From NCBI GenBank assembly GCA_027451445.1, contig DAIDJG010000325.1:1-32911 (forward strand): a DNA stretch of 32,911 nucleotides, written 5' to 3'. Positions 1-28,016 of this stretch are shown here, piece after piece (positions within the stretch are counted from its first letter, which is position 1; each line of letters begins with the position of its first letter). Both the position numbers and the translations under genes were made by a program. The DNA is from Singulisphaera sp. (GTDB taxonomy: Bacteria > Planctomycetota > Planctomycetia > Isosphaerales > Isosphaeraceae). Below the pieces are notes generated by a model. That model made no database searches. It worked only from the letters and a program-made list of their open reading frames with translations, and had not been told where the DNA came from.

Positions 1-1
1 C

Positions 2-853
2 GAGTCGCCCAAGCGGCGGTTGAAGGCGATCCAGCGGCGTCTGCTTCACGACTTGCTCGACGTCATCCCACCCCACGACGCCGCCCATGGGTTTCGCGCG
101 GGGCGATCGGTCACTACGTTCGTGGCGCCGCATGTGGGTCAACACGTCGTCTTGAAGATGGACCTGCGCGACTTCTTCCCCTCGATCAGCTCCGCGAGGG
201 TTGCCGCCCTGTTCCGCACGGCCGGTTATCCCGAGCCCATCGCGCAGTTGCTGACCGGCCTGTGCACGAACCGCGTTCCTGCCGACGTTTGGAAGTTCGC
301 CGAAGCCCCCGTGCCGGGTGTCGAATGCTGGCGGATGCAGCGCCTCTACAGCCACCCGCACTTACCTCAGGGCTCGCCGACCTCACCCGCGTTGGCAAAC
401 CTCGCCGCCTTCCGACTCGACAGCCGCCTGGCCGGTCTCGCCCGCGCCGCCGGCGCCTCGTACACGCGCTACGCCGACGACCTCGTCTTCTCGGGTGGCG
501 AGGATTTTGCGCGTACGCTTCCCCGGTTCCCGATCCACGTCGGCGCGATCGCGCTGGAAGAGGGCTTCGCGATCCAGCCGAGGAAGACCCGCGTACTCCG
601 CCAAGGCGTCCGGCAACAGGTCGCGGGCGTCGTCGTGAACGAGCGGCCGAACCTCGGTCGCGCCGAGTACGACGCGCTGAAAGCGCAGTTGTTCAACTGC
701 GTCCGTTTCGGACCCGAGCAGCAAGATCGCGCCGGTCATGCGGATTTCCGGGCGCACCTGGCGGGCCGTGTGGCGTACGTCGCGATGCTGAATCCTGCGC
801 GCGGGGAGCGGCTGAGGGCACTCTTTGCGCGAATCGTGTGGCCGGGGGGATAA
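2..853 (+). CDS. Retron-like reverse transcriptase (5' end outside window)
   Basis: RNA-directed DNA polymerase, probably of the retron-type branch. The frame is open from base 2, so the N-terminus lies outside the window; the TTG at 20 is internal because the preceding codons (ESPKRR) continue a normal RT start region. Motifs in order: HGFRAGRS, then a conserved His in FVAPH, MDLRDFFPSI with the first catalytic Asp, LPQGSPTSPALANL, and the polymerase box TRYADDLVFSG with the YADD aspartates. Near the end, QQVAGVVVNERPN matches the retron-type VTGLVVN region. The palm, fingers and C-terminal region are present to a normal stop. No maturase or HNH domain follows, which argues against a group II intron protein. 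The template RNA (msr-msd), if any, would lie upstream outside the window. RT identity is secure; the retron assignment is inference. Confidence 0.88.
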   Translation, partial: ESPKRRLKAIQRRLLHDLLDVIPPHDAAHGFRAGRSVTTFVAPHVGQHVVLKMDLRDFFPSISSARVAALFRTAGYPEPIAQLLTGLCTNRVPADVWKFAEAPVPGVECWRMQRLYSHPHLPQGSPTSPALANLAAFRLDSRLAGLARAAGASYTRYADDLVFSGGEDFARTLPRFPIHVGAIALEEGFAIQPRKTRVLRQGVRQQVAGVVVNERPNLGRAEYDALKAQLFNCVRFGPEQQDRAGHADFRAHLAGRVAYVAMLNPARGERLRALFARIVWPGG

Positions 854-878
854 GTGCCGATAGCAAGGGACCCTTCGC

Positions 879-887
879 TGATATACT
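879..887 (+). promoter_or_regulatory. Candidate extended -10 promoter
   Basis: TGATATACT fits an extended -10 box (TGn plus TATACT). It lies about 80 bases upstream of the GTG start at 971. No clear -35 hexamer is seen at the expected distance. It would drive the small hypothetical gene that follows. Confidence 0.3.
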
Positions 888-970
888 CAGAACGAACCGT
901 CGAGAAATTCCGGATTCCAGAACTGGCGTAATCGGTTCGCTTCGACAACGTTTCGCTTGATACAAGGTCG

Positions 971-1375
971 GTGTGTGCCTTGCCGGTTTATCGTTCTAGC
1001 TATTGGGCGATCGATGTAAGCGACTGGGCCGTTGATGCGGACGGCGGGTGTGTTCTCTTTACGTCGCCAGATGAGTCCGCCGACTTGCGAATCACCACCT
1101 GCGACTTCGACGATGGCCTGACCTATCAGAAGTTGCGCGCCTGGGCGGACGAGCGAGCACCGGTCGGCACACCAATCCGGGAATGGGAAGGTGGTCGGTT
1201 TTCCGGGGTCCATTACGAGTTTTTCGACGGAGAAGCAACCTATTGGCGGGAGTGGCTGTTAACGCTGGCTGAACTGGTACTCGTGGTGAATTACTGCTCT
1301 GAAGAGGGAGACCACGAGCGGCACCGTGACGCGGTTGATCGCATGCTTTCGACGCTGGTAGACAATCGCCCCTGA
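971..1375 (+). CDS. Hypothetical protein, 134 aa
   Basis: Small soluble acidic protein with no signal peptide or membrane segment. I cannot assign a family. Pattern of note: VYRSSYWAIDVSDW at the start, a central GRFSGVHYEFFDGEATYWREW segment and a C-terminal helix ending DRMLSTLVDNRP, the layout of a compact alpha/beta fold. The start is uncertain: GTG at 971 has an AAGG only three bases upstream, and TTG at 980 is an in-frame alternative. It follows the reverse transcriptase by 117 bases on the same strand and is convergent with the next gene. Coding is supported by an uninterrupted frame with codon usage like its neighbours. Confidence 0.6.
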   Translation: MCALPVYRSSYWAIDVSDWAVDADGGCVLFTSPDESADLRITTCDFDDGLTYQKLRAWADERAPVGTPIREWEGGRFSGVHYEFFDGEATYWREWLLTLAELVLVVNYCSEEGDHERHRDAVDRMLSTLVDNRP

Positions 1376-1403
1376 CCTGGTTCACAATCAGTGAGTACGC
1401 GGA

Positions 1404-1880
1404 TCAATCGGAAACCCCTAGATGGAGCAAGAATCTTTCCTCAGGCGAGTCGAAAACAAGATCATCCCAGGCGCACTCATAGAACCAGGTGGTAACGACC
1501 GCGATGCTCCAAACCATCGTTGGCCGAACCGCCTTGTCCAGCGTTGCTATCAGCCAGTCGAGAATCGCATTCCGTCCGGAATCGTCGCTAAGTGAAAACG
1601 ACCGACGAGGATCGGCAAGGTGATCAGAACGCAGATCTTGAAACTGGAACAACCAACGTCCGAAGAGGCCTCTGACGATCGCCTGCCAGTCTTCGACGGC
1701 TGTCGCCGTGACCTCGATTTCATTGCCGCCGAACCACGCCTTCACGGACTCGGCGACACTTTCGGCATGCGGGAGAGTGAAGAAATTAAACGAGTACACG
1801 TGGTTCGTTTTGTCGTTGAACCGAGCGAACGCCTCGAGGAACCCACGCAGCTCGCCGCAAGCGATAGTCTTCTCATCCAT
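1404..1880 (-). CDS. Hypothetical protein, 158 aa
   Basis: Soluble protein of no recognised family, starting MDEKTIACGELRGFLEAF from an ATG at 1880. It is rich in aromatic residues (FFTLPHAESV, FGRWLFQFQDL, TTWFYECAWDDLVF) and acidic at the C-terminus, with no signal peptide or transmembrane helix. Size and composition resemble the small immunity-like or SMI1-type proteins common in genomes of this kind, but I see no diagnostic motif, so that is only a suggestion. It is convergent with the gene ending at 1375, with a 28-base gap. The ribosome binding site is weak (CAGGTTGG about 5 bases upstream). The region is somewhat less GC-rich than the rest of the window, which may hint at acquisition. 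Confidence 0.55.
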   Translation of the reverse strand: MDEKTIACGELRGFLEAFARFNDKTNHVYSFNFFTLPHAESVAESVKAWFGGNEIEVTATAVEDWQAIVRGLFGRWLFQFQDLRSDHLADPRRSFSLSDDSGRNAILDWLIATLDKAVRPTMVWSIAVVTTWFYECAWDDLVFDSPEERFLLHLGVSD

Positions 1881-2227
1881 GGAGCCAACCTGAGAACAGG
1901 GAATGATCCTGATTTGTCCTTACCATGCAACGGGTTTGAGAATTCCTCATTCCGGGCCTCGAACGCGATCGAACGTTCCGTCTCCAAGCAAAGACTACCG
2001 GATGAGTCGATGAGATGCGACTGAGCAAAGGACGGATCAGGCAGAGAGCTGTCCAAGTCCAACATTCCATTCTGATTTTATTCTGAATCCCCGATTCATT
2101 CCCGTGTGCCGTTTCTCCAGTCTCGGACCGATCCAATCTGCGATTGTACAACCACAACTCCAGCGCGGCGCGGGCCGGCGACCGATATCACCGGCCCGCG
2201 GCGCGAGCTTTTTGCCGCCGTAAGCGT
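1881..2227. other. Intergenic region, no gene supported
   Basis: This stretch of about 350 bases lies between two minus-strand genes. It is visibly more AT-rich than its surroundings (for example around 2068-2100). Reading frames crossing it lack a ribosome binding site and family signal, so none is called. The only structured element is the GC-rich hairpin at 2169-2200. Confidence 0.5.
2169..2200. terminator. GC-rich hairpin downstream of the DUF899 gene
   Basis: Perfect 10-base arms CGCGGGCCGG (2169-2178) and CCGGCCCGCG (2191-2200) enclose a 12-base loop. It begins 27 bases after the minus-strand stop at 2228, so it probably ends the ArsR operon. The T-run (2209-2213) is on the plus-strand side, so it is not a textbook terminator for the minus strand. 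Confidence 0.45.
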
Positions 2228-3034
2228 TTACGCGTGCGCCTCGGCCTCCTGACAACACAAACCGCCGATTTGAACGAGCGCCTCATATTCATCGTGCCGG
2301 CGCCACCAGACACCCGTCTCATTGCGTCCCCTGGGGGCACGATCGAGCCACTGGTACATACCCCACAGCCCATCCAGACCGCGAGCATAGGTAGAATACG
2401 TGTGGTAGACGACGCCGTCCTCGAGCACAAACGCGCTCAATCCCGGCCGATCGCGTGTGAACGTGTCCGGATCGGTTCCGCACATGGCCGCGAACTGGGC
2501 GACGGGCTCGGGGACAGGTTTCGCGTCCATCACGAAACCGCCGCGATGGTAGTTGTACTCGACGGGCCCCTGGAGCTGCTGTTCCTCGGTGAACGAGACA
2601 TTGAAGTCGAAGTTGAAATCGCCGTCGAGCGACGACGCCCAGGGGAACGTCCACCCCATGCGCCGCTTGTAGGCTTGCAGGGTCGCGAGCGGTGCCCGCG
2701 ACACCGCCGAAAGCGTGACGTCATGGTTCGCCAGATGGACGACGAAGCCATTGAACCCATCGGCGATCATCGAGCAGGAGGGACACCCCGCCTTGTAGTC
2801 GGGCCCGAACATGAAGTGGTAGACGAGGAGCTGCGAACGTCCCTGGAAGAGGTCGGCCAGTGAGGCAGTCCCGTCCTCGGTCTCGAACGCGTACTCCTTA
2901 TCGACCCGGACCCACGGCAACTCCTGACGCCAATGCGCCAGCGAATCGCTGCGCCGGGTGAGCTCCTTCTCCGCGTTGAGCAGCTCGAGCCGGGCGGCAA
3001 GCCACTCCTCTCGGCTTACGACGGGATGTCGCAC
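2228..3034 (-). CDS. DUF899 family thioredoxin-like protein
   Basis: Cytoplasmic protein of the DUF899 family, a thioredoxin-fold group of unknown substrate. The start is the GTG at 3034: it is preceded by GAAAGGAG at 8-base spacing and gives the usual family beginning RHPVVSREEWLAAR. Following features match the family: ELPWVRVDKEYAF, a LADLF-RSQLLVYHFMFGPDY strand, the CxxC-type motif GCPSC (Cys84 and Cys87), HLANHDVTLSAVSRAPL, and GWTFPWASS. Length (268 aa) is normal. It is the last gene of a four-gene minus-strand operon and overlaps the preceding membrane-protein gene by 19 bases, which suggests translational coupling. The open frame extends to 3322, but that part overlaps the neighbour and lacks family similarity. 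Confidence 0.88.
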   Translation of the reverse strand: MRHPVVSREEWLAARLELLNAEKELTRRSDSLAHWRQELPWVRVDKEYAFETEDGTASLADLFQGRSQLLVYHFMFGPDYKAGCPSCSMIADGFNGFVVHLANHDVTLSAVSRAPLATLQAYKRRMGWTFPWASSLDGDFNFDFNVSFTEEQQLQGPVEYNYHRGGFVMDAKPVPEPVAQFAAMCGTDPDTFTRDRPGLSAFVLEDGVVYHTYSTYARGLDGLWGMYQWLDRAPRGRNETGVWWRRHDEYEALVQIGGLCCQEAEAHA

Positions 3035-3330
3035 GATTCGGTCTCCTTTCTGAAATGGCGAAAGACGGCCCCAATGCGATTCAGACGTTTCCCAACCCGA
3101 AAGAGCAACGACGCTGCGCCGAGGGACAGCAGCCCCCAGCGCAGATAGGTTGCCGAAGTGAGCGAAAGGCCGAGTCCGGTCCAAAGCGCCAGGTACGCGG
3201 CCAGACACGCAGGACACTTGGGCAGCGACACCAGGACGACACTCGGGACGACCCATGCAAAAACCGCTTGGACTCGTCGTACCCATGCTGGCGCTTTGCG
3301 GTCGGTGGCGGCGCTGCAGCATGCGATCAT
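3016..3330 (-). CDS. Small membrane protein with CPAC motif
   Basis: A 104-residue integral membrane protein with about three hydrophobic segments (near 22-37, 41-58 and 62-78). Between the first two lies PKCPAC (Cys39, Cys42), and two more cysteines sit at 4-5. The paired cysteines next to a membrane helix recall MerC/MerT-type small thiol proteins, but I cannot place it in a named family. The start ATG has AGGAG about 8 bases upstream. The gene lies between the AHSA1 gene (11-base gap) and the DUF899 gene (19-base overlap), so it belongs to the ArsR operon. A thiol or metal-related job beside the CPSC-bearing DUF899 protein is inference. Confidence 0.72.
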   Translation of the reverse strand: MIACCSAATDRKAPAWVRRVQAVFAWVVPSVVLVSLPKCPACLAAYLALWTGLGLSLTSATYLRWGLLSLGAASLLFRVGKRLNRIGAVFRHFRKETESCDIPS

Positions 3331-3341
3331 CGATTCATCTC

Positions 3342-3800
3342 CTATCGAGTCCTGCGCTCGGCCAGCTCACGAATGCGATCCAGCCAGTAACCCCAGCCCT
3401 GAGCCATACCTTCGCGATGGTCGGGCTGGATCAGTCCGCAAGCGCGATGGAGGAACGCCAGCCGAGTCACGGCCCCATCGGCCTTGAAGCGGTACTGCAC
3501 GTGATTGATCGCGGGATACGACATCATCAAAGGCCCGGAGATCTCCAGGAGCGTCGGCGGCTTGATGACCTGCACATGGCCCCAAAGGTGGCCCGTATTG
3601 TTGCCGAGATCGCGGTACCAGCGTCCGCCTGGCCAGGCCTCGAGCATGAAGGGGAACGGTGTGCCGTCGGGCTTCTCCCCTCCTGGCCCAAGCTGCTCCA
3701 GCATGGATTCGAAGGCGATCTCGATCGGCGCTGCGATTTCGAGCTCCCTGGCGATCTCGAACGTTTCCACCGTCTCTTGTTCACGAATGGCCGTTGTCAT
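3342..3800 (-). CDS. SRPBCC / AHSA1 family protein
   Basis: Single-domain protein of the Activator of Hsp90 ATPase homolog 1-like group of the START/SRPBCC superfamily, which form a hydrophobic ligand pocket. Sequence marks are EIARELEIAAPIEIAFESML at the N-terminus, PGGRWYRDLGNNTGHLWGHV, a LLEISGPLMMSYP strand and the long C-terminal helix GWGYWLDRIRELAE. Length (152 aa) is typical. Its ATG overlaps the stop of the upstream arsR-family gene as ATGA (3797-3800), a translational-coupling arrangement. ArsR-AHSA1 gene pairs are common in bacteria; the ligand is unknown in most, and no reaction can be assigned here. Confidence 0.88.
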   Translation of the reverse strand: MTTAIREQETVETFEIARELEIAAPIEIAFESMLEQLGPGGEKPDGTPFPFMLEAWPGGRWYRDLGNNTGHLWGHVQVIKPPTLLEISGPLMMSYPAINHVQYRFKADGAVTRLAFLHRACGLIQPDHREGMAQGWGYWLDRIRELAERRTR

Positions 3801-4174
3801 GCTTGCCCTTTCCGGGGTTCGAGGGATGTTGGCGACTCCGTCTCTGCATGCGCTCGCTGCTCAGCGCGCTCCTTGATGCGGTCGAGTTGATGGCCCCAGA
3901 GCTCTTCAAAGCCCTTGGCCCAATCGTGCACCGGCTTCAGCGTTTCGGCTTCTGGGTTGTACACGGGGCAATTGCCTTGTTCGATCACCGCGACCACACC
4001 CACCTTGCGCAGCACGCCAAGGTGCTTCGAGACCGCCGGCTGTGGAAGCCCCAATGCTACGACCAGCACCCCAGCAGCCATCGGTTCCTGCCACGCAAGC
4101 CACTCGACAATCGCTCGCCGGCGGCGTTCAGCGATGGCGTTGAACACGTCGACGGTCGTCGGTACACGCAACAT
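3797..4174 (-). CDS. ArsR family winged-helix repressor
   Basis: DNA-binding repressor of the ArsR/SmtB fold, 125 residues. The winged helix covers about residues 5-85: VFNAIAERRRRAIVEWLAW, then the recognition helix region LPQPAVSKHLGVLRKVGVV, then a wing strand. The C-terminus (KPVHDWAKGFEELWGHQLDRIKERAE) is the helical tail usual in ArsR proteins paired with AHSA1 partners. No CxC or other classical metal-site motif is seen, so metal sensing is not implied. It is the first gene of a four-gene operon and sits directly behind a promoter with a palindromic operator, so autorepression is likely. The ATG at 4174 lies only 6 bases from the -10 hexamer. Confidence 0.9.
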   Translation of the reverse strand: MLRVPTTVDVFNAIAERRRRAIVEWLAWQEPMAAGVLVVALGLPQPAVSKHLGVLRKVGVVAVIEQGNCPVYNPEAETLKPVHDWAKGFEELWGHQLDRIKERAEQRAHAETESPTSLEPRKGQA

Positions 4175-4180
4175 GTCTCC

Positions 4181-4208
4181 ATTGTATTCCCGTAAGGGAA
4201 TATGTCAA
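4181..4208 (-). promoter_or_regulatory. Promoter of the ArsR operon with operator in the spacer
   Basis: On the minus strand a perfect -35 TTGACA (4208-4203) and a near-consensus -10 TACAAT (4186-4181) are 16 bases apart. The expected transcription start is about 7 bases beyond the -10, at or beside the ATG at 4174, so the message is leaderless or nearly so. The spacer is largely occupied by the palindrome annotated separately. Confidence 0.75.
4185..4202. promoter_or_regulatory. Palindromic operator, probable ArsR-family binding site
   Basis: TATTCCCGTAAGGGAATA has perfect 7-base arms around a 4-base centre. It fills the spacer between -35 and -10, so a bound repressor would block RNA polymerase. 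Assignment to the adjacent ArsR protein is inferred from position. Confidence 0.7.
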
Positions 4209-4502
4209 GCGGCAACCCGACGACGCGGCGCGAATTGGTGATAGAGATCGTCCCCAGCGGTTCATGATCGCGTTGCACCCGTTTCCACGCCCAATCCTTA
4301 ATACTAACCCGAAGCGCGAGCGAAGGCATTATATAATCATTCCTCTCTCGGTCTTCGGATTAGTGTAAGCGACTCGGTCCCACGACGGGGGCAACCGAAT
4401 CGTCTCGCCGTTTCTCGTCCCCGCACCGTTGGACGGGCCTCTCCGTGGACTTGCCTGGTTTCGCAGTGAAGACACGGCTATTCTGGGTGTCAGGAGGGTA
4501 CT
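4209..4502. other. Intergenic region upstream of the DUF4058 gene
   Basis: About 290 bases without a gene. It holds a candidate interspersed repeat (4300-4327) and an AT-rich stretch ATTATATAATCATT (4328-4341) that could supply a -10 box (TATAAT, 4332-4337) for the downstream plus-strand gene. No clear -35 is seen. Confidence 0.4.
4300..4327. repeat. Candidate planctomycete interspersed repeat
   Basis: The core ACTAACCCGAAGCGCGAGCG looks like a short intergenic repeat I associate with planctomycete genomes. Only one copy is in this window, so repeat status rests on recollection rather than on the sequence. Confidence 0.3.
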
Positions 4503-5243
4503 ATGCCGCTACGCGATCATTTCCGTCCGCCGGTCTCGAAACATTCTTCGTGGGAGGGCTTTCACGGCGGCTGGCCGATGACAATCGTTCAGGAATTGGC
4601 TCCCCGATTGCCGGACGGCTTCGTGGCGGAACCGCGCGTGCATCTCGGCAGTTTTTACGAAATCGACTTCTGTACCTTCGAGCAATATGGGGAGGATGAG
4701 CCCGACTTCAGCTCGACCTGGCAATCGAGCGGAGCTGGTGTCGCCACTGCGCTTCAAGCACCCTCCGAGCCAATGCTCATCCTGGATGCCGAATTCCCGG
4801 AACAGTACGCCTACGAGGTCTTGATCTTTGATCTCGAACGAGAGCGCCAACTGGTCGCGGCTGTCGAGATCGTTAGCCCGGCGAACAAGGATCGGCCCGC
4901 AAGCCGTCAGTTATTTGTCGCCAAGTGCTACAACCTACTGCGCCAGGACGTCTGCGTGTCAATCATCGATCTGGTCACCATTCGCCAGTTCAACCTGTAT
5001 ACCGAGTTGCTGAGTCTCTTGAGACGCGCCGACCCGAGGTTCACGCCGCCGCCTCCGATCTACGCTGTCACCTGTCGCAAACGTGAGGCTGACCGGCAGG
5101 CGAAGCTCGAGACCTGGTCCTTTCCGTTGGCAGTTGGACAGCCGCTCCCGGCGCTTCCGATCTGGTTGTCGGAGACGCAAAGCGTGATGCTCGACCTGGA
5201 AACGAGCTATGAGGAGACCTGCCGCGCGTTACGCATTCGGTGA
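4503..5243 (+). CDS. DUF4058 family protein
   Basis: Soluble protein of 246 residues in the DUF4058 family, whose function is unknown. The beginning MPLRDHFRPPVSKHSSWEGFHGGWP is the typical family start. The middle contains RQLVAAVEIVSPANKD, whose acidic residue and following SPANK recall the core of PD-(D/E)xK-like nucleases such as Uma2, although no nuclease activity can be claimed. LRQDVCVSIIDLVTIR and the C-terminal PLPALPIWL segment complete the family pattern. The ATG at 4503 has a strong AGGAGG (4492-4497). It is a single-gene unit convergent with the GH81 gene, with a 55-base gap. Confidence 0.88.
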   Translation: MPLRDHFRPPVSKHSSWEGFHGGWPMTIVQELAPRLPDGFVAEPRVHLGSFYEIDFCTFEQYGEDEPDFSSTWQSSGAGVATALQAPSEPMLILDAEFPEQYAYEVLIFDLERERQLVAAVEIVSPANKDRPASRQLFVAKCYNLLRQDVCVSIIDLVTIRQFNLYTELLSLLRRADPRFTPPPPIYAVTCRKREADRQAKLETWSFPLAVGQPLPALPIWLSETQSVMLDLETSYEETCRALRIR

Positions 5244-5298
5244 AAGAATCGATTGCGACCGGGACCTCGGTTCGAAGCCCCGGCCCCATTCCCCTGCC

Positions 5299-8200
5299 TT
5301 ATACGAACACGTTGAGTTCCGCAATACTCCACCAGTACGAAGCCGAACCCGTCTGCACGATCCGAATGTAGCGGGCCTTGACCGGGGTGCTGAGCGACAC
5401 GTCGATCAGCGATCCGGTCCCGGTGCCGCTGGCGATCGCTGGATCCGTCGACCAATCCGTGCCGTTGTCCGAGACCAGGATCTCGTAACCGCGGGCGAAG
5501 TCGTTGACCGAATTGCCCGCGTCGAACGCGATCCGGTCAAACGCCTGAACCGAGCCCAAGTCGATCTGGAACCACTGGCCAGCCGTCTGTGCGGTCCCGC
5601 TGCTCCAGCGCGAGTCGAAGCTCCCATCAATAGCGTTGGCCGCCGAGCCGCCTCCCTCGGTGCTGCTCGCGGATGCGGCCCAGGCCGACCGGTCCAGAGG
5701 CGTCACGCCCAGGGTCGTCCCGGTGCCGTAGACGTTGAAATCAAAGAGCGAGTACCCCCACTGGGTGTCGCGGGCGGTGCCGAGGATCCGGACGTAGCGG
5801 CCTGTGCCTGACAGGCCCGTGTAGTCGTGCGCGCCCGAGGTCGTGTTGCCGGTGACCGACACAACGGTCGTCCAGGTGTTCGCGTCGTTGCTCACCTGGA
5901 TCTGGTAGTCCTTGCCGGCGGCGTTCTCCCAGTTGAGTTTCACCTCGCTGATGTTGTAATCAAAGCCGAGATCGACGTAGATCCACTGTGGGTCGCTGAA
6001 CGCGCTGCTCCAGCGCGTGCCGCTGTTGCCATCGACCGCGTTGGAGGCAGGGAAGGCGTCGCACTCGACCGAGGAGGCGAATACGGGCCGGTTCAGAGCC
6101 AGGTCGGAGCTGGCCACGGCCGGGGTCGTCGCGCTCGCCTCGTTGGAGGTGACGCTGGAGCCAGCGGTGTTCACGGCTTCGACGACATAGAAGTACGTAT
6201 TGCTGGGGATGACCGTGGTGTCCTGGAAGGTGGTGCCGGTGACCGGCGTGGCGTTGATCGGCGTGGTCGACTCGCCGCCGGCCGTGGTGCCGCGGTAGAT
6301 GTTGTAGCCGGATACGGTGCCCGACGGGGCGGTCCAGGACAGGTCGATCGCGTAGGCGAAGTTATCGGTTGCGGTCAGTCCGCTCGGCGCGGTCGCGGCC
6401 TGGCTGCCGTAAACGCTGAAGTCGAAGAGGGAGTAGCCGTACTGCGTGGTCCGCGCGGTGCCGTACACACGCACATACTGACCCGAGGTGTCGAGGTCCG
6501 AATAGTCGTGCCACCCCGACGCGGTGTTGCCGGTGATGGTCACCGCCTTACTCCAGTTGATTCCGTCGGTGGAGACCTGGATCAGGTAGTCCTTGCCGGC
6601 GGCGGTTTCCCAGTTGAGTTTCACCTCGCTGATGTTGTACACGGCCCCGAGGTCGACGGCGATCCATTGCGGATCGCTGAACTCGCTGCTCCAGCGCGTG
6701 GTGCTGTTGCCGTCGACCGCATTGGCCGGGCCAACACCGCCGTTCTCGTCCGACGACGACATCGCCACGGCGTTCAGGGCGAGGTCCGGCGCTGTGGTGG
6801 CACTCGCTTCGTTCGATGCGGCGCTGGCGCCACCGACGTTGACCGCCTTGACCGTGTAAAAGTAGCTCGTCTGCGAAGCGACGGTGGTGTCGACGAAGCT
6901 CGTGCCGGTGATCGGCGAGGCGTTCAGCGGCGTCGCCGATTCGTCGCCGGGAGCGGTGCCACGGTAGACGTAGTAACCGGTCACTGACCCGCTCGGAGTG
7001 GTCCACGACAGATCAACCTGGGTGTAATCATTCTCCACGGTGGCGGACAGGCCGGTCGGCGAGGGCAACTGGTTCAGCACGTTGACGGCTGCCGAGGCGC
7101 TCACGGCACCGTCCGTCGCGATGACGACGGCGCTTCCCGGTGCGCCGGGGGCCCAGTAGTAGCCGGTGTTGCTGATCGCGCCCGGGCCGACGACGCTCCA
7201 GGTGACGCCCGGATTGCCGACGACGGCGCCAAACTGGTCGATGCCGCTGACGCTGAACTGCTGGGCGGAGTTGGTGAAGAGACTCGTTGTGCTCGGTGTC
7301 AGGACGAGCGTACTGAGACTTGGCAACACGTCGACTGCAACCGTGCTGGTTGTGCTGAGGCCGTTGGTATCGGTGACGTTAACCTCGAGCGTGTAAGTGC
7401 CGGTCGCCGTGAAGATGACTGTCGTGGACTGTGCGGCGTTCGTGCCGTTGGCCGAGAAGGTCGCCTGCGCTCCGGGCGGGCCGCTGATGAGAGCCCACGT
7501 GTAGGTCAGGTTGGTCTCGTCTTGCTCCTCGTCGGTGCCGAGGACGCTGAGCTGCGTGCTCGTGCCGGTGACGGTCGCCGGGTTCGCGGCCGGCTCTTGT
7601 GTGATGATTGGCGGCGCCTGGCCGCCGGTTGCGGAACGTGTCACGACGTTGAAGCCGGGCTGGGCGAGAAAGCTGTCGAGCACGTTGTTGTGGCTGTCGA
7701 GCACCTGTACGGTTTCCGGCGTCGTGGCCGGATTGTAGGCCATGTAGGTGATTGTGTTGGACACCGTCGTACTGTCACTACCGTGTGAGTACACGCCGCC
7801 GAGCGGAACGGACAGGTGATCGTCCCAATCGCGATTGCCGTAAGTCTGATACGAGTGGTCCTGCCAGTAGTACAACCCCGTCGTGCCCTGGGTCGCCGCA
7901 CCGCCCCCTTGCGCGATGTCCTGGGCATAAGCGTTCGCGGTGGCCTGCGGATCGTACTCGGCCTGGAAGCCGAGGGTGATGTTCAGCCAGTCGGCGCCGC
8001 CGAAGCCGCCGGGATCGTCGAATGAGGCGAACGTGTTGTACGTACCCGGATCGGCTGGGTTGTAGTTGGGATTGGTGGCCGTTTGGTTGTAGTAAACGTT
8101 GCGCTCGGCGAGCATGTTCTGAATTGCCGCCGAGGCCGCCACCGGATCACGGCCCAGGTAGTCAAGGTCCGGCCAGATGGGGAGCGCCTGGATACCCAGG

Positions 8201-11200
8201 ATGTATTCGGGGCTCGTGCCGAAATAGGTGGCGTAGACCTTGGCGCCGTCGAAGTTGATGCCGACGTTGGAATTCGGGATTCCCTGGTTCGTGGAGAAGG
8301 TGCTGGGGAACGCTGTGCCGTCGGCATTCGTCGAGCCCGGGGCGTTGTTGAAATACTGTTGCTCGACGGCTTTCGACTCCATCGTATAGCCCATGATGCC
8401 TGCGGAGGTCATGGCCGGATCGTTGAGGGCCTGACCCAGCAGCACCAGCCCGAGCCAGGACTGCATCGCCTCGCTGGAGGATTCCTGGTTGTTGCCGGCG
8501 CCGGAACCGGTGCCACCGGCATAGCTGTGGCCGACCCACGGTTCGAAGGTCCGCAGGAACGGCAAGCTCATCGCGTTGGGGTCTGTCAGATCGGGTGTGC
8601 CGCCGGGATGCACCCAGTTGGCGTACTCCATGGCCACCATCTTGGCCATGGCGCCATATTCCAAGGCCCAGGTTGGGTCGAGCATGCTCAGAACGCCGGC
8701 CGCAGCGGTGAAATAGCCATACTGCAATTGATTGTCGGTGAAGTCCTCAGAACCGTAGCCGCAACTGAAGCCGATCAAACCGTGCATGCCCGGATAGTAG
8801 ACGAAGTAGTGGCTGGTCGTGTCCGTGCCGGGTGTGTAGGTGAACCAGTCGGTCATCGCCCGCTCGAGACTGTTCAGGAAAATGGTGTAGTCGGCCGTGT
8901 CACCCATCTGCCGGGCGATCAGGGCATATTCGGCGTACTCCTGAAGGGGCTTGGCGCCCCAGTAGGTATCGTTGCCGTACACCAGGAGCGTCTGGCCGGC
9001 CGCCTTTGAGGCGGCGGTGTCGATGTGCTGCTGGATGTAGGTTTCGAGGAACGTGCGCATTTGTTGCGGATCGAAGTCGGTCGAGACAGCGGCGGCGCTG
9101 GGGTCGTACGTGAACGCCGGGGCGCCGATGACCTGCGGCAGCGCCAGTTCGAAGTTGATCCCGTCGGTCTGCTGACTGACCGCGAAACTCGTCCCGGCCG
9201 TGAGCCGGATGTCACCGTTGAGTGACGGAAATTGCAGGTACTGGCCGGCCGAATTGGTGAGCAGGTTCAGGCCGCTGGCGCCGTTGTCGTAGTCGATCGG
9301 CAAGAAGCCCTGAAGCGTCGCGAGGTTCCCCTGGGCGGCCTGCGACGCTGTGGGCGCATTGGGGTCAATCGCCACGGTGTTGAGGTTCCAGAGCGTGGTG
9401 ATCTGGCCGGAGGCCGCGCTGTAGGGTTCCCAGTTGTACGTGCTGCTCTGCGTGCTGCCGACCTGGCGAGGGACGGCGTAGGCATACTGGTAAAAGAGGT
9501 TGAGCGTGGCGGCACTGGCATCAGGCATGTCGGCCACGACCAGGTACGGTTTGGCCCCCGCGGCGAAAGTCACCGTCCAGGCGTTCCCGTTCAGGGTGAA
9601 CGTTGTGCCCGTCGGCGCGAACACGCCCATGGGCTGGCCGCCCGTCTCGACGAGGAAATGGTCGGTCGAGAAGCTCGTCCCCAGGGCGTTGCCATTGCCG
9701 TCGTAGGCCGTGAACTGAGCCTGGCTGGCGTCGCCACCCGAATGCATCGTGAGCGTGGGCGTGATGCCGTTGAACTCGAACCAGGTGTAGGGCAGGCCTC
9801 GTCCGGTGGTGACATCCACCGAGCTCCCCGAGGGTCCTTCCATGCGGTAGTGCAGCGTCCAGTCGCCGTAGTCGAGCAGAGCATCTTGCCCGAACGTGAT
9901 CCCGGCACCGCCCACCACGAGGCTCTCCTGGCCGGTCCCCAGAATGGCTCCGCCGTCGCCGTTGGTGCCGACGCCCGAGTACGTGCTCACCGCGATGCCC
10001 GCGGCCGAGTCGTTCAGTTTCTGCGGGTACGCGTACAGATCGCCCGCGAATTGGGACACCAGCAGGTTCGTCCACCAGTCATTCGTTGGGACGGTGGCGT
10101 TAGGGGGCGGATTGATCCACTTGTAATCAGTGTTATAAACGACCGTAAACAGGTCGGGGATGGAGTTCAGCAACGCATTCGGCGGCTCAGCCGCGTACGA
10201 GCCCTGCTCGTTGGGGTCGGGTTTGGCGGACGACGGGGGCGCGACGACCGCGGACAGTTGCGCCCAGTGGTCGTTGACCGTCCCGGAGACCACTTGAACC
10301 GTCATCTTCTGCGGACCCCAGGGGATTTCGACCCACGGGTTGGTGGTGTTCGGGACGGCCGAGATGTTCGTGGCCGTCGTCAGGGTCTGGTAGCCCACTG
10401 CGGCCGGCACGCTGAACGTGAAGATCACCGGTGCGGCCGGCTGGTTGTTGGTGCCGAGGGTGCCGAACGGAGCCCCGGCATCGAAGGTGACTTGCAACTC
10501 GGCGGGCGTCGAACCGGTGTTCTCGACGCGCAGCGCGAGGGTGTACTTGCTGGTCAACTCGGCCATGATCGTGTACGTCAGCGAGTCGCCGGTGCCGAGC
10601 CCTTGCACGTCATTGCCACCGTCGGAGTCGGCCGTCGGCACCACGACCGGGGCCGTCCCCGTCGGGGAGGAGTCGCCGTCCGGCGCCGCGTCGTAGTTGT
10701 TCGCCGCGATCTGCGTGCTCGCCCCGGATGCGGGGATGTCCCAGGGAGCGCTGTTGTTGCCGGAGGTACGGGAGTTGATGAGGCGGAAATCGTCGATATC
10801 GACGCCGCTGCTGGTTCCCGCAGGGTCGGCATCGGTGAAGCGCAGGGTGTTGAGGCCGACACCCGGCAAGGTGATCAGGGCCGTGGCCGTCTCATAGGTC
10901 CAGATGCTGCCTGTCGGCGCAAACGACACCGTGCCCACGGGGACCAGGCTGGTGACCCCGGTCGCCGGGTCGGTATAGGTCGAGCTGATATCGAAGGTGG
11001 AGGTCTGTGTTCCCGAGTTGGCATAGCTCACCAGCAACTGGTATTGCAAGCTGGGGCTGACCGGCTGATACGCGGGCTGCGTCACAGCGGGGCTGAGGGG
11101 AACCACGTTCGTTGGGACCAGGACGCTGTACTGAGTCCAGTCGCCGCCCTGCCAGTTGGTGGTCACAAGCCCTGTGCCCCGGTTGGCCAGGTCGACGTAC

Positions 11201-12081
11201 TCCCCAGGTCGGAACGGCGTCGAGCTGTAGGGATAGGTGCCCGGGTCCAGTGATTGATCGAGCCAGTAGTAACCGGCGCTCTGCACGCCGGTCGACCCTG
11301 CAGCCTGTCCACCGAGGTCGTAGTTTTCCGATTGAATCTGCGCCGCGCCAAACGCAGGGAGAACCGGCGGAGCGCCGCGCAGACCCACGCCGGGAGCCGT
11401 GCCCTCGGGGGCGTAGGCCGATTCGGACGCGCTCGCATCTGCGCCGGGTGTGAGACTGATGTAGTCCAGGTTGTAGCCGCCGCTATCTTCCCAGACGGTC
11501 ATGACTTGCGTGCCGGACGAGAGGGTGACGCTTGTGGTGAAGTCCTGATAGTCGCCCCAGCCGCCGGTGTTGGTAATGGCGACCTCACCCGAGGTGGCGC
11601 TCGGTGGAACGGTGCGGGCGCCGCCGTCGCCGAAGCTCGCATGAACCGCGCCGCCGTTCGCCGCGCTGGAGGCGTGGAAATCCACCACGTAAGTGCCGGG
11701 TTGGTCCACGTGGATGGTGTAGTTCATCCAGTCGCCAGTGTCGAGATAGCCCACATCGTACGTGTTGCCGTCGCTGGCAAAGGGGCCCTCCACGCCCATG
11801 CCCTCGTTCGGCCGATACGCGCCGCCGGGGTTCCTGGCGAAGTTGCTGTGATACGCAACCCCCTCGCCGCCGTAGTCGAAATTCTCGGCCTCGATCACCG
11901 AGGGACCATACGGCAAGACTTCCCAGGGCTGTCCGTCGGCTGTGAACGGCGTGCTGGCGGAAAGTACGAGGCGAGGTTCAAGTGCTTCCATCGTCAGCCG
12001 GACCCTGGACGCCCGGCACTTCGCCGGGGCACAGTAGATCGGACGGGATGAGCGCGCAGACAGACCCTTGAGCCAACGCAT
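5299..12081 (-). CDS. Secreted multidomain GH81 endo-beta-1,3-glucanase
   Basis: Giant exported enzyme of 2260 residues, expected to cleave beta-1,3-glucan (laminarin, callose, fungal wall glucan). The ATG at 12081 is chosen because AAAGGAG lies just upstream; an in-frame ATG at 12123 lacks this. Order: LEPR-XLL export motif LEPRLVLSA (34-42); CBM6-like domain (62-212, AENFDYGGEGVAYH); a second such domain (246-436); a beta-sandwich (455-612); GH81 catalytic region (about 645-1480) with PTNDWWTNLL, the probable acid Asp1116 in FTDNQLQYGYF, and Glu1200/Glu1204 in NNQESSSEA; PKD-like and Ig-like domains (1490-1670); FN3 (1672-1763); F5/8 type C (1766-1892); FN3 (1897-1986); F5/8 type C (1993-2119); F5/8 type C (2127-2260). 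No C-terminal anchor is seen. GH81 and domain calls are by motif; Asp1116 is assigned by analogy. Confidence 0.9.
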   Translation of the reverse strand: MRWLKGLSARSSRPIYCAPAKCRASRVRLTMEALEPRLVLSASTPFTADGQPWEVLPYGPSVIEAENFDYGGEGVAYHSNFARNPGGAYRPNEGMGVEGPFASDGNTYDVGYLDTGDWMNYTIHVDQPGTYVVDFHASSAANGGAVHASFGDGGARTVPPSATSGEVAITNTGGWGDYQDFTTSVTLSSGTQVMTVWEDSGGYNLDYISLTPGADASASESAYAPEGTAPGVGLRGAPPVLPAFGAAQIQSENYDLGGQAAGSTGVQSAGYYWLDQSLDPGTYPYSSTPFRPGEYVDLANRGTGLVTTNWQGGDWTQYSVLVPTNVVPLSPAVTQPAYQPVSPSLQYQLLVSYANSGTQTSTFDISSTYTDPATGVTSLVPVGTVSFAPTGSIWTYETATALITLPGVGLNTLRFTDADPAGTSSGVDIDDFRLINSRTSGNNSAPWDIPASGASTQIAANNYDAAPDGDSSPTGTAPVVVPTADSDGGNDVQGLGTGDSLTYTIMAELTSKYTLALRVENTGSTPAELQVTFDAGAPFGTLGTNNQPAAPVIFTFSVPAAVGYQTLTTATNISAVPNTTNPWVEIPWGPQKMTVQVVSGTVNDHWAQLSAVVAPPSSAKPDPNEQGSYAAEPPNALLNSIPDLFTVVYNTDYKWINPPPNATVPTNDWWTNLLVSQFAGDLYAYPQKLNDSAAGIAVSTYSGVGTNGDGGAILGTGQESLVVGGAGITFGQDALLDYGDWTLHYRMEGPSGSSVDVTTGRGLPYTWFEFNGITPTLTMHSGGDASQAQFTAYDGNGNALGTSFSTDHFLVETGGQPMGVFAPTGTTFTLNGNAWTVTFAAGAKPYLVVADMPDASAATLNLFYQYAYAVPRQVGSTQSSTYNWEPYSAASGQITTLWNLNTVAIDPNAPTASQAAQGNLATLQGFLPIDYDNGASGLNLLTNSAGQYLQFPSLNGDIRLTAGTSFAVSQQTDGINFELALPQVIGAPAFTYDPSAAAVSTDFDPQQMRTFLETYIQQHIDTAASKAAGQTLLVYGNDTYWGAKPLQEYAEYALIARQMGDTADYTIFLNSLERAMTDWFTYTPGTDTTSHYFVYYPGMHGLIGFSCGYGSEDFTDNQLQYGYFTAAAGVLSMLDPTWALEYGAMAKMVAMEYANWVHPGGTPDLTDPNAMSLPFLRTFEPWVGHSYAGGTGSGAGNNQESSSEAMQSWLGLVLLGQALNDPAMTSAGIMGYTMESKAVEQQYFNNAPGSTNADGTAFPSTFSTNQGIPNSNVGINFDGAKVYATYFGTSPEYILGIQALPIWPDLDYLGRDPVAASAAIQNMLAERNVYYNQTATNPNYNPADPGTYNTFASFDDPGGFGGADWLNITLGFQAEYDPQATANAYAQDIAQGGGAATQGTTGLYYWQDHSYQTYGNRDWDDHLSVPLGGVYSHGSDSTTVSNTITYMAYNPATTPETVQVLDSHNNVLDSFLAQPGFNVVTRSATGGQAPPIITQEPAANPATVTGTSTQLSVLGTDEEQDETNLTYTWALISGPPGAQATFSANGTNAAQSTTVIFTATGTYTLEVNVTDTNGLSTTSTVAVDVLPSLSTLVLTPSTTSLFTNSAQQFSVSGIDQFGAVVGNPGVTWSVVGPGAISNTGYYWAPGAPGSAVVIATDGAVSASAAVNVLNQLPSPTGLSATVENDYTQVDLSWTTPSGSVTGYYVYRGTAPGDESATPLNASPITGTSFVDTTVASQTSYFYTVKAVNVGGASAASNEASATTAPDLALNAVAMSSSDENGGVGPANAVDGNSTTRWSSEFSDPQWIAVDLGAVYNISEVKLNWETAAGKDYLIQVSTDGINWSKAVTITGNTASGWHDYSDLDTSGQYVRVYGTARTTQYGYSLFDFSVYGSQAATAPSGLTATDNFAYAIDLSWTAPSGTVSGYNIYRGTTAGGESTTPINATPVTGTTFQDTTVIPSNTYFYVVEAVNTAGSSVTSNEASATTPAVASSDLALNRPVFASSVECDAFPASNAVDGNSGTRWSSAFSDPQWIYVDLGFDYNISEVKLNWENAAGKDYQIQVSNDANTWTTVVSVTGNTTSGAHDYTGLSGTGRYVRILGTARDTQWGYSLFDFNVYGTGTTLGVTPLDRSAWAASASSTEGGGSAANAIDGSFDSRWSSGTAQTAGQWFQIDLGSVQAFDRIAFDAGNSVNDFARGYEILVSDNGTDWSTDPAIASGTGTGSLIDVSLSTPVKARYIRIVQTGSASYWWSIAELNVFV
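5725..6393 (-). repeat. Intragenic FN3-F5/8C module, copy 2
   Basis: Encodes residues 1897-2119 of the GH81 protein, an FN3 domain followed by a discoidin-type F5/8 C domain. It is the tandem partner of 6406-7068. The two share a perfect 32-base stretch (5927-5958 here), within KLNWE-AAGKDY and NISEV coding sequence. Confidence 0.8.
6406..7068 (-). repeat. Intragenic FN3-F5/8C module, copy 1
   Basis: Encodes residues 1672-1892. It shares with copy 2 the motifs SGxYxYRGT, NAVDGNSxTRWSS, FSDPQWI, NISEVKLNWE, GTARxTQ and GYSLFDFxVYG, and at DNA level a perfect 32-base match (6608-6639). This indicates tandem duplication of a two-domain unit. Confidence 0.8.
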
Positions 12082-12542
12082 GGGGGCTCCTTTGGTGAGC
12101 AAAGAGTTAATGTTGGCCGTCAATCAGAATGAGGGGCGAGCCGAAAGGTGCTCCTCACCGGACGTGTTCGATTGAGACGCGTTGGGGGCGGTTGAGGACG
12201 GTTTCGCGGGGCAGACTCATCAGGCTCCGGCCTGGTTTCGTAACAATGCCGGTGTGCTCTTGGCATGTGACGTCGCGGCCAAGTGCCACGTTGAGAGCGT
12301 TTTCGATGCTCATGATTCTGCCCCTGAGAGCGGGATCGCTCGAGGCCGTTCGCGACACCGCATGGGTTCGCGGCGAACCGGTCGACGTCTCCGCTGTCAC
12401 ATTCCTAGGCGTTGGGCAAGGACACACGCACGGTCGCATGACGAAGATGATGCTTTTGCGCTGCAATGGAGGTGAGTCGAGAGCGAAATCATTCCGCGTG
12501 TCCCGTTTTGTTGGTCAGTCACCGTACGCATGGAGTAGACCG
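12082..12542. other. Divergent intergenic region
   Basis: About 460 bases between the GH81 gene (minus) and a small membrane-protein gene (plus). Open frames run through it on both strands but have no family signal, no convincing ribosome binding site and odd composition, so none is called. It presumably holds the promoters of both flanking genes; I could not pick out a convincing -35/-10 pair. Confidence 0.45.
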
Positions 12543-18891: not shown

Positions 18892-19286
18892 GTCACTTGC
18901 TCGACACCAACATCTGCGTGGCTCATTTTCGACGTCCTGGCGGGTTGGCGCACCGATTCATGCAATACGGCGGCGGTCTCTTCGTTCCCACCATCGTGTT
19001 AGGCGAACTCTATGCCGGAGCGTATCACACCACGTCCCCAGGACCCTTGCACCAGAAAATTACCGATCTCCTCAACGATGTTCATGTCTTGGACTTCGAC
19101 CTTTCCTGCGCGGAGCAGTTCGGAAGGATCCGCGGTAGCTTGCTCCAACGAGGCATTTCGGTGCCAATTCCAGACTTAATGATTGCCGCGGTGGCTCTAG
19201 TTCATAACTTGACCCTCGTAACCCACAATACGGCGGACTTTCACAACGTCCCCGGCCTTCGACTGGTGGATTGGCTCGCTCGTTGA
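18888..19286 (+). CDS. vapC: PIN-domain toxin, VapC-like ribonuclease
   Basis: Ribonuclease toxin of 132 residues. The PIN-domain metal ligands are all present: Asp6 (SHLLDTNIC), Glu40 (VLGELYAG), Asp96 (PIPDLMIAA) and Asp117 ([10 protein letters not shown]). VapC toxins cut tRNA or rRNA with magnesium or manganese and stop translation until bound by the antitoxin. Its ATG overlaps the antitoxin stop as ATGA (18888-18891), the normal order and coupling for such pairs. Length is usual and no key residue is missing, so it is probably active. Next downstream is the P-type ATPase fusion, 25 bases away. Confidence 0.92.
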
Positions 19287-19311
19287 GCCCGACGGAGATT
19301 CTTCCAAGACC

Positions 19312-22300
19312 ATGCACCGCGAATACCACCCCGATCAGATGGGCCTTGGCCCTCCCTCCCACGGGGACCACCACCATGATGACCACCACGATCACGACCA
19401 CGCAGCCGAGCTGCGCACATTGATCGCGACCACCGTCGTGGTGGGGCTCCTGCTCGCGGCTGACCAGTTCCTGGCATTCACGATGCCCGCGTCGCGGTAT
19501 CCGTTCGGAATCTCGCTTGCGCTGCTCGCGGCGGTGATCGGCGGCGGCCGGATCGTGTTTCTGGCCCTGGCGGCGCTGTTCGAAGGCCGGATCGGGGCCG
19601 ATATCGCGCTGGCGGTCGCGTGCGTGGCGGCAGCGCTGCTGCGCGAATACTTCGTCGCGGCCGAGGTGGTGTTCATCGCGCTGGTTGGCGAATGCCTCGA
19701 GGCGTTCACGTTCGGCCGAGCCCAGAGGGCGATCCAGAAGCTGCTCGAATATCGACCCCGCACAGCACGCGTCCTGCGCGACGGTGAAGAGGTTGAGATC
19801 CCGGCCGAAGGCGTCGCGGTGGGCGACTTTCTTGTCGTCCGACCGGGCGAGCGGATCGCGGCTGACGGCACCGTGAGCGCGGGGCGGTCGGCGGTCGACC
19901 AGGCGATCCTGACGGGTGAGAGCCTCCCCGTCGATAAAGGGGAAGGCGACCCGGTCTCCGCGGGCACGATTAATCAGTTTGGCCGGCTGGAAGTCCGCGT
20001 CGAGAAGGTCGGTGCCCAGACGACGATGGGCCGCGTGATCCGCCTGCTGACGGACGCGCAGAAGCAGAAGGCCCCCCTGGAGCGAACCGCCGACCGCTAC
20101 GCCCGGCTGTTTCTGCCCGCCGTCCTGACGGCCGCGACCGTCGTATTCCTGTTCACCAACGCCACCGGCCTCTGGACCTGGGTCCGAGGCGGTGCGCGGC
20201 CGATTGTGGATGTGATGCCGAGTCTCGCCGTGCTGGTCGTCGCCTGCCCTTGCGCCCTGGTGCTCGCGACCCCCGCCGCCGTGCTCGCTGCGACGGCCCG
20301 CCTCGCCCGACGTGGGGTGCTTGTCAAGGGAGGCGCCGCACTCGAACTGCTCGCGCATATTGATACCATCGCCTTCGACAAGACCGGCACCCTCACCGAA
20401 GGCCAGCCCGAGCTGGCCGACCGTGTTCCCTTCAACGGCATCAGCCAGGATGACCTGCTGCGCCTCGCCGCAGCCGCCGAGCGGCCGAGCGAGCATCCAC
20501 TGGCGCGGCTGCTCGTGCGCGAGGCGAATTCACTCAACCTCGCGCTCCCCGAGGTCGCCGACTTCCAGGCGCAGCCCGGGGCCGGAATTGCCACGACGCT
20601 CCGCGACGGGGACACCGTTCGCCACGTCCTGGTCGGTAACCTGCGCCTGTTTCGCGAGCGCGGAGTGCCGACACCTCCGGAAGTCGAGGCAACTCTCGGC
20701 GCGCTCGATGCGGCGGGTCAGACGGCCTTGCTCGTGGCCGTCGACGGCAAGATCGCGGGTGTCATCGGTGCCCGCGACCGAGTGCGACCCGAAGCCTTCG
20801 ACATCATCCACGACCTCAAACAGCTCGGTCTGAAAGATTTGACCATCCTTACCGGCGATCGCGCCGCTCCGGCCGGAGTGGTGGCCCGGAAGGTCCAGAT
20901 CCAGAACGTGGAGACCGAGCTCACGCCGGCGGACAAGGCCGGGTGGATCCGCCGGCGCAAGGACGAAGGCCGCATCGTGGCGATGGTCGGCGACGGTATC
21001 AACGACGCCCCTGCCCTTGCCCTGGCCGACGTGGGGGTCGCGGTCGCCGCTGCCGGGGCCGACGTCTCGGCCGAGGCCGGCTCGGTTGTGCTGATGAGCG
21101 AGCCGCTGGAGCCGTTGCCGGGCGCAATCACCCTGGCGCGGCAGGCCGTGCGGGTGATCCGCCAGAACATCCTCCTCTTCGCGTTCGGGCTCAACGGCCT
21201 CGCGATCGCGCTGGCGGGACTCCGCGTGCTCGGACCGGTCGCGGCGGCGATCTTCCACCAGGTCGGCTCGCTGCTCGTGCTGTTGAATGCGATGCGCCTG
21301 CTCGGCTTCGAACGTTGGCGCGAGTCGAGGCTCGCCCACGCGTTCGACCGGATCACCACGACCTGCCGGCGCTGCTGGCCGAGCGATCCGGTCGGCTGGT
21401 CCTGGACGCATCGCCGCCGGTTGATCCAGTGGAGTTTGGGGATTCTGCTCCTGGCCTATCTCAGCTCGGGTGTGGTGGTGGTGGGCCCCGAGCAGGTCGG
21501 CGTCCTGAAGCGCTCGGGACGCTACCAGGCCCCCCTGCTCTGCCCCGGTCTGCACGTGCGGCTGCCGTACCCCTGGGAGTCGGTGACCCAGGTCGAGCCC
21601 GACACCATGCGCGTGGCCCGGATCGGATCGACGGGGCCGGCCACAAATCCACGCGGGCCGATCGCCTGGAGCGCGACGCACGGAACCCGTCGCGACGAGT
21701 CGTCACTCTTCTTCACGGGGGACGAGAACCTCGTCGAACTATCGGGCGTGGTCGAATACCACTACTCCGAGGACGGTGTGCCCGACCTGCTCTTCGGCGT
21801 GGCGAGGATTGAGGACGGTGTGAGCGCCGCGGCCGAAGGCGTGTTTCGCGAGGCCGTGGGCCGGGCGCCGCTGGAGGCGATCCTGGTCGGACCCCGCCGG
21901 GACTTCGAGGCCGACGTCGAGCGTCAGTTGCGCACGAGGCTCGCCGCGACTGGCCTGCGCGTGGTGGTCGACCGCGTACGCGTAATCGACGCCCACCCCC
22001 CGCGCGAGGTGGTCCCGGCCTATCGCGATGTCTCCGCGGCCGTCTCCGACGTCGCCCGGCTCAAGAACGACGCCGAGGCCTTCGCCGCCGAACGCCACTG
22101 GTCGGGCCTCGCCGACGCCCAGGGGCGCCGCGACGTTGCCCAGGCCACACGCGACCGGTTGAAGCTTCGCGCCGAGGGCGAAAGCAAGGCGTTCGCCGCC
22201 CGCCAGTCGGCTCACACAGCCCGACCTGACCTGACCGAGTTCCGGCTCCTGTGGAACACCCTGGCTACCGCGTTCGCCGGTCGTCCGAAGTTGATCCTCG

Positions 22301-25247: not shown

Positions 25248-25275
25248 ACGCCCCCGGGTTTTGGAGACTCTGACA

Positions 25276-27982: not shown

Positions 27983-28016
27983 ATCTCTTCGTATTCCTCT
28001 TTGCAAGGAGCGTGTG

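Follow-up and report, generated by a model that had tools for sequence, protein, structure and literature searches.

A probable two-component retron of RNA and reverse transcriptase, split over two contigs of a Singulisphaera assembly

We analysed a 32,911-nt stretch of DNA from Singulisphaera sp. (the window), which is an entire contig (G000:C325). At its left end lies part of a reverse transcriptase (RT) gene that very probably belongs to a two-component retron split by the assembly over two contigs, composed of a promoter-like site, an RNA, the RT and its putative msDNA, with no linked effector. By every sequence test available here the system appears to be a genuine retron, and its best reading is a free-standing two-component retron from an untyped clade that PADLOC calls RT_other or RT_outgroup. 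The clade is already recognised at the RT level by family libraries; what we add is the complete RNA with cross-phylum covariation, RNA plus RT as the whole conserved unit, and a split arrangement in one genus.

Much of retron biology has been accounted for by a toxic effector that RT and msDNA restrain. The clade described here spans Planctomycetota, Pseudomonadota, Myxococcota and Actinomycetota, with RNA structure and RT under selection and no linked effector, which raises the question of whether msDNA has a role alone or which host protein is recruited. The analysis also yields a compact RNA-RT cassette and a covariance model for which Rfam has no equivalent, and names places where retron RNA may act in trans.

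The reverse transcriptase gene and its missing half

The ORF at the left end encodes 283 amino acids, the final 283 residues of an RT cut by the contig end, and as the window is the entire contig, the 5′ end of this gene is an assembly edge. The features of this region are as follows.

Window 1–141 (+): overlap of contigs C309 and C325, identical to the C309 end, joining both gene halves
Window 2–853 (+): ORF open at the contig start, C-terminal part of the RT (residues 164–446 of 446)
Window 86–109 (+): HGF-RAGRS motif (HGF at nt 86–94, GRS at nt 101–109)
Window 125–133 (+): APH of region X (VAPH, with V for the N of the NAXXH found in most validated retrons)
Window 470–481 (+): YADD catalytic box
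Window 620–640 (+): VAGVVVN, start of region Y (VAG for the VTG of most validated retrons)

The first-pass annotation, made from the window alone, had read this ORF as a retron-like RT with YADD, HGF-GRS and VAGVVVN motifs and no maturase domain. All three motifs were located in the ORF, and a Pfam scan of the window RT returned RVT_1 only (E 4e-17). NAXXH and VTG are each present in 14 of 16 validated retrons by the account in PMC6868368, and the absence of the N from region X and VAG in place of VTG in region Y are points against a retron.

With a full-length RT from the same genus (P0004, genome G001) as query against the genome, we traced the missing N-terminus to the end of contig C309. 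The 141-nt overlap was found at only two places in the genome, the C309 end and the window start, and a C309 position p corresponds to window coordinate 142 − p. The minus strand of C309 supplies residues 1–163 and a TTG start codon at C309:629, giving a joined RT of 446 amino acids whose frame is continuous and aligns to the unbroken RT of the same-genus relative. The upstream sequence that the first-pass annotation had called for was thus obtained, and carries both the RT N-terminus and an msr-msd-like RNA. The gene just upstream of the retron on C309 (L120:919–2208, minus strand) encodes a type III polyketide synthase with chalcone/stilbene synthase domains.

An msr-msd-like RNA precedes the reverse transcriptase

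The first-pass annotation had also proposed a search for an msr-msd RNA with a priming guanosine, and an RNA with an AAGC motif was found directly before the RT start on C309.

C309:628–801 (minus): msr-msd-like RNA, 174 nt, ending at the RT start
C309:801–784 (minus): a1 arm, pairing with a2
C309:645–628 (minus): a2 arm, pairing with a1

The ends form a perfect 18-bp a1/a2 stem (AACGGCGGGGTACTCCAA / TTGGAGTACCCCGCCGTT), which encloses CCAAGC, two msr hairpins (P2 and P3), a linker and one msd hairpin (P4), with a predicted fold energy of −100 kcal/mol. The stretch from P3 to a2 measures 77 nt; GGAG lies inside a2, and the RT start codon overlaps the a2 end. A sigma70-like, promoter-like sequence (TTGACC-18-TACGCT) ends 7 nt before a1, and similar promoter-like sites were seen by eye before many relatives' RNAs.

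According to PMC6868368, msr-msd RNAs stand before the RT with complementary ends of 8–30 nt, and the priming G lies in or just after the 5′ arm, mostly within TAGC and also within CAGC or GAGC. The RNA found here shows this anatomy, being 5′ of the RT with a1/a2 arms within the 8–30 nt range. CCAAGC is immediately 3′ of a1, its A-A-G is invariant in the 22 rows of the covariance model described below, and the G after a1, in its AGC context (AAGC), is the putative priming guanosine. Rfam gave no match for the RNA in its own locus, in 13 relatives or in five loci of other phyla, and the Rfam matches elsewhere in these loci were RNase P and small RNAs. PADLOC also includes msr-msd covariance models (PMC9252829); the comparison of our RNA was with Rfam only.

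Covariation and distribution of the RNA

Aligning 28 upstream regions with plain MAFFT yielded 34 consensus pairs, 27 of which showed two-sided compensating changes with pairing kept in at least one sequence each. In this alignment, 95.8% of paired cells kept pairing, against a mean of 82.5% after shuffling and 41–48% in slid versions, a comparison in which the structure is favoured over slid versions by being derived from the same alignment. The 27 pairs with two-sided changes compare with a shuffled mean of 12.4, and none of 500 shuffles, which ignore relatedness, reached the observed value on any of five measures. In one row, L034, the a1 arm is out of register.

From this alignment we built a covariance model, R1, leaving out L033, L034, L035, L060, L061 and L065; kinship or title assigns each of its 22 rows to Planctomycetota. 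At E ≤ 1e-4, R1 matched 52 of 76 sources (the window and 75 of the loci collected), nine of which were model sequences or came from the same genomes. The other matched sources include Burkholderia, Myxococcus, Dechloromonas, Rhodococcus and further Actinomycetota. A model built from planctomycete rows alone thereby detects the RNA before homologous RTs in Pseudomonadota, Myxococcota and Actinomycetota. The 24 sources without a match at this threshold are the window, L075 (E 0.023), type XIII-like and other distant RTs, other Myxococcus and Burkholderia RT loci, and L014, where the RNA lies beyond the fetched stretch and another locus of the same genome (L041) has it. In L041, from Singulisphaera sp. 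GP187, a gene lies between the retron RNA and the RT (L041:4303–5499, plus strand), which we take from its resemblance to be TnpB-like.

Across 198 relatives, R1 gave at least 58 matches in 53 genomes, a lower bound set by stricter filters. Compared by eye, 53 of the 58 lie upstream of a same-strand RT; these include our own copy, the only one in its genome, counted across the contig break, and one in G010 whose RNA is 1.8 kb from the RT. Of the other five, L159 is beside a frameshifted RT and L160 beside a truncated one, and no RT was present within the fetched 5 kb in L161, L162 and L163. We regard L159, L160 and L161 as decaying copies. A clade-type RT occurs in 13 of 27 Myxococcus genomes.

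RNA and RT form the whole conserved unit

The first-pass annotation had noted that retron RTs usually come with an effector and had pointed to two small neighbouring proteins of no known function, which do exist and gave no PADLOC, Pfam or NCBIfam match at the limits used.

Window 971–1375 (+): ORF P0002, 118 nt downstream of the RT
Window 1404–1880 (−): ORF P0003

An effector next door found no support. When the locus was compared with that of the same-genus relative by blastn, a single similar stretch was found, running from a1 to the RT end (joined 19200–20700); the two loci have RNA and RT in common, but neither P0002 nor P0003. Similarity was confined to the unit, give or take ~55 nt, in 8 of 22 locus pairs (L066/L069, L076/L077, L076/L080, L053/L047, L053/L072, L055/L072, L054/L047 and L072/L047), and the other 14 share flanks as well, as expected of copies at one site. 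In a search for a mobile vehicle, phage records gave two weak, distant matches; of the six matches in plasmid records, three are to Burkholderia replicons measuring 0.9–1.3 Mb.

This occurrence of the same cassette at unrelated sites in close relatives, together with varied flanking genes and the broken or orphan copies L159, L160 and L161, would also fit a selfish or domesticated retroelement, that is, a mobile, compact RNA-RT cassette persisting without a defence role. We consider this unlikely, although it is the strongest of the alternatives: copy number is low (the R1 matches hardly outnumber their genomes), the RNA structure is held by compensating changes, and the clade loci examined have an uninterrupted RT reading frame.

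Gene order around 36 units likewise gave no recurrent neighbour. In 18 of 34 loci the first gene after the RT shares its strand, and in 6 of 34 a same-strand ORF starts within 60 nt downstream; with these six close ORFs, partners in single lineages are conceivable. We then scanned 71 flanking ORFs (68 of 135 chosen, plus our own upstream gene, P0002 and P0003): no Pfam family occurred in more than two, and PADLOC matched four families with one member each. Among the largest listed clusters from an all-against-all ORF comparison of long-flank loci were frames overlapping the RT and Burkholderia loci at one site, and the other listed clusters comprised 4–6 loci in which distance (up to ~5 kb) and strand varied. 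A constant upstream gene pair appeared, among listed clusters, only in type XIII-like loci. Partners that evolve fast or are very small would escape BLAST at 1e-6 and crude ORF calling, and an unlinked effector is invisible to flank comparison.

We regard a tripartite retron of the ordinary kind, with a nearby gene such as P0002 or P0003 as its effector, as very improbable. Most studied retrons have a linked effector by the account in PMC12548924, and P0002 is close by on the same strand, but neither neighbour matches any family or accompanies the cassette in the same-genus relative, and the clade shows no recurrent neighbour and no shared Pfam family. Because similarity is limited to RNA and RT, the neighbours vary and no family recurs, the proteins at 971–1375 and 1404–1880 are judged, from these comparisons, to lie outside the retron unit. 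Some retrons without clear proximal effectors are noted in PMC8867640, and so the absence here is not unheard of.

Placement of the RT

PADLOC matched the window RT far beyond chance with RT_other (2e-128), RT_outgroup (2e-122) and RT_XIII (2e-85). In the full-length relative P0004, including its N-terminal extension, the scores were 4.8e-160 for RT_other and 8.7e-152 for RT_outgroup. These two models (PDLC02949 and PDLC03740) are the best ones, cover P0004 in full and represent untyped classes. Three NCBIfam retron models matched the partial window RT without reaching their cut-offs, the highest score being 158 of 235 bits.

In a 67-row tree, which was midpoint-rooted, contained three long-branch rows and had 22 of 64 inner branches firmly supported, the window RT fell in group 1 (32 rows, support 92/93). 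Its sister, group 2 (15 rows, 100/99), joins it with support 91/98; type XIII-like RTs, group II RTs and the remaining Myxococcus RTs fall outside the pair. By pattern search, NAxxH was present in 5 of 32 group 1 rows and 14 of 15 group 2 rows. The AlphaFold2 model of a relative (L039; pLDDT 88.7) matched retron RTs in PDB rows 1–14 (Z 20.5–26.2), the best being Ec86 (Z 26.2, rmsd 3.8, 293 aligned residues), followed by G2L4 (19.5), group II (18.8), DGR (18.6) and DRT2 (18.0); one further retron chain ranked lower (row 23, Z 16.5). The retron reading of the first-pass annotation is supported by family models, tree and predicted structure, and above all by the msr-msd-like RNA. As it had proposed, the RT was placed in a phylogeny, where it groups with the RTs that follow an R1 RNA, apart from group II. 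A group II intron, which it had named as a refuting case, found no backing: besides the missing maturase domain, model TIGR04416 gave 38 of 300 bits on the partial RT, and no Rfam intron was found in window 1–6000 or L120 1–2000. A type XIII retron was rejected, as RT_other scores better and the two upstream partner genes are absent.

A defence RT of the DRT/UG type, in which RT and RNA make long or repeated cDNA and not msDNA, is marginally less probable than even a neighbouring effector. Two-component RT-plus-RNA systems of this kind, DRT2 and DRT9, do exist (as described in PMC12039810 and PMC12489045), but retron profiles score far above Drt profiles on the partial window RT, on which Drt2 reached 32.8 of 390 bits and Drt3a 14.7 of 200, far under the equivalog cut-offs, and both RNA anatomy and best structural matches are those of retrons. 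A wrong join of C309 and C325, with the RNA belonging to a different RT gene, can practically be dismissed: the overlap is a single stretch, probably of the assembly k-mer length, but this stretch occurs nowhere else in the genome, the same-genus relative has an unbroken RT to which the joined protein aligns, and the genome holds only one R1 RNA at E ≤ 0.01.

The 446-residue RT comprises a helical N-terminal domain of ~100 residues and a retron RT core. Folded alone, this domain was predicted as five helices (pLDDT 85.8), and Foldseek found no PDB match at E ≤ 0.001 (best 2.7), which is no proof of a new fold. A fused effector in the extension is conceivable, but an enzyme seems unlikely, because the columns of the extension include no invariant and four nearly invariant positions, one of them the start Met. 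The RNA also occurs with group 2 RTs, whose N-terminus is different: it is present in cis in 20 of 20 fetched loci, 11 of which are additional to the R1 scan of 198 relatives. In many group 2 RTs (L168–L187), an MGLFDFL-like hydrophobic start and a basic linker replace the helical domain; membrane contact by this start is possible. The Singulisphaera genome also carries a second, type XIII-like retron RT (L003, G000:C540; PADLOC RT_XIII 9.9e-152).

RNA and RT on different contigs in one genus

In genus g45 (family f2; RT group 2), the RNA and RT were on different contigs in all three species examined, each genome having one R1-type RNA and one clade RT.

L162:2126–2285 (+), L163:2674–2834 (−) and L194:1261–1420 (+): g45 RNAs, R1 matches
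L164, L165 and L195: g45 RTs, the only clade RT per genome, with no R1 match upstream

In G143, the RT occupies 61.8–63.0 kb on a contig of 147 kb and the RNA lies at 34.7 kb on one of 131 kb, which puts at least 96 kb between them; for the remaining two species the contigs set a minimum of only ~8 and ~23 kb. Both loci are conserved between species. The RNAs keep group 2 features; a promoter-like site precedes them and a T-run follows a2. Most of the differences among them are in the msd hairpin, where pairing is kept. In L162 and L163 the RNA precedes what is presumably an Nramp-like transporter gene.

Upstream of the g45 RT lies a ~200-nt non-coding stretch (L165:436–640, plus strand, with matching stretches in L164 and L195) that is 88–100% identical among them, was found in three of 120 genomes of the family, each of them g45, and matches neither R1 nor Rfam. 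Its fold shows covariation in 5 of 94 pairs, from three rows only. This stretch could be a replacement template, which would speak against a split retron. We give slightly less than an even chance to the suggestion that in this clade, as a free-standing two-component retron, the RT can work on its RNA when the two are encoded far from each other, and g45 possibly has a naturally trans-acting retron. If true, the RNA would be free to evolve as a separate gene. We found no report of a naturally split retron in the portions available of the literature on effector-less or trans-acting retrons, which is weak evidence.

Proposed mechanism and comparison with known systems

In the two-component retron that we propose, the RNA would begin at a1, after the promoter-like site, and run into the RT gene. 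It would fold with its ends paired, two hairpins forming the msr and one the msd. By analogy with known retrons, the RT would bind this RNA, prime from the 2′-OH of the G directly after a1 (CCAAGC), and copy from next to a2 back through the third, msd hairpin. The product would be a branched msDNA of up to ~77 nt, with the P3-to-a2 length as the upper limit. In our own copy, with GGAG in a2 and the start codon overlapping it, RNA folding may limit RT translation. As no effector gene travels with the unit, the working product would be the RT-msDNA particle itself, either alone or through an unlinked host protein. A candidate for a docking surface is the helical N-terminal domain of the group 1 RTs. 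Tentatively, the most likely role of the particle would be that of a phage sensor, and an antiphage role is possible.

Among known systems, Retron-Eco1 (Ec86) shares the RNA-before-RT layout, the a1/a2 stem and the priming G, as described in PMC6868368, and has the closest solved fold. In contrast to our system, it has a dedicated effector, going by the title of 7v9x, and no helical N-terminal domain of this kind. Type XIII-like RTs (RT_XIII), the next best PADLOC model, are likewise retron RTs with an N-terminal extension, but they are separate in the tree, most of their loci have two upstream genes, and none of those searched has an R1 RNA. DRT2 and DRT9, as far as described in the sources cited above, are alike in being two-component RT and RNA systems with no separate effector gene, but belong to other RT families with other cDNA products. 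The myxococcal retrons Mx162 and Mx65 have an extended N-terminus and CAGC or GAGC at the priming G, and Mx65 also lacks the N of NAXXH; these likenesses rest on the description in PMC6868368 and not on sequence comparison, and by that description Mx65 could be a member of the clade.

Other genes in the window

A 2274-aa protein encoded at 5299–12123 (−) contains a GH81 C-terminal domain, CBM6 and F5/8 type C domains. A protein in which E1-E2 ATPase and HAD hydrolase domains are joined to a Band_7 domain, with two more Band_7 proteins nearby, is encoded in the region of 19312–22413 (+) and 25261–27269 (+). A 996-aa ORF at 28014–31004 (+) has no Pfam match at E ≤ 1e-6.
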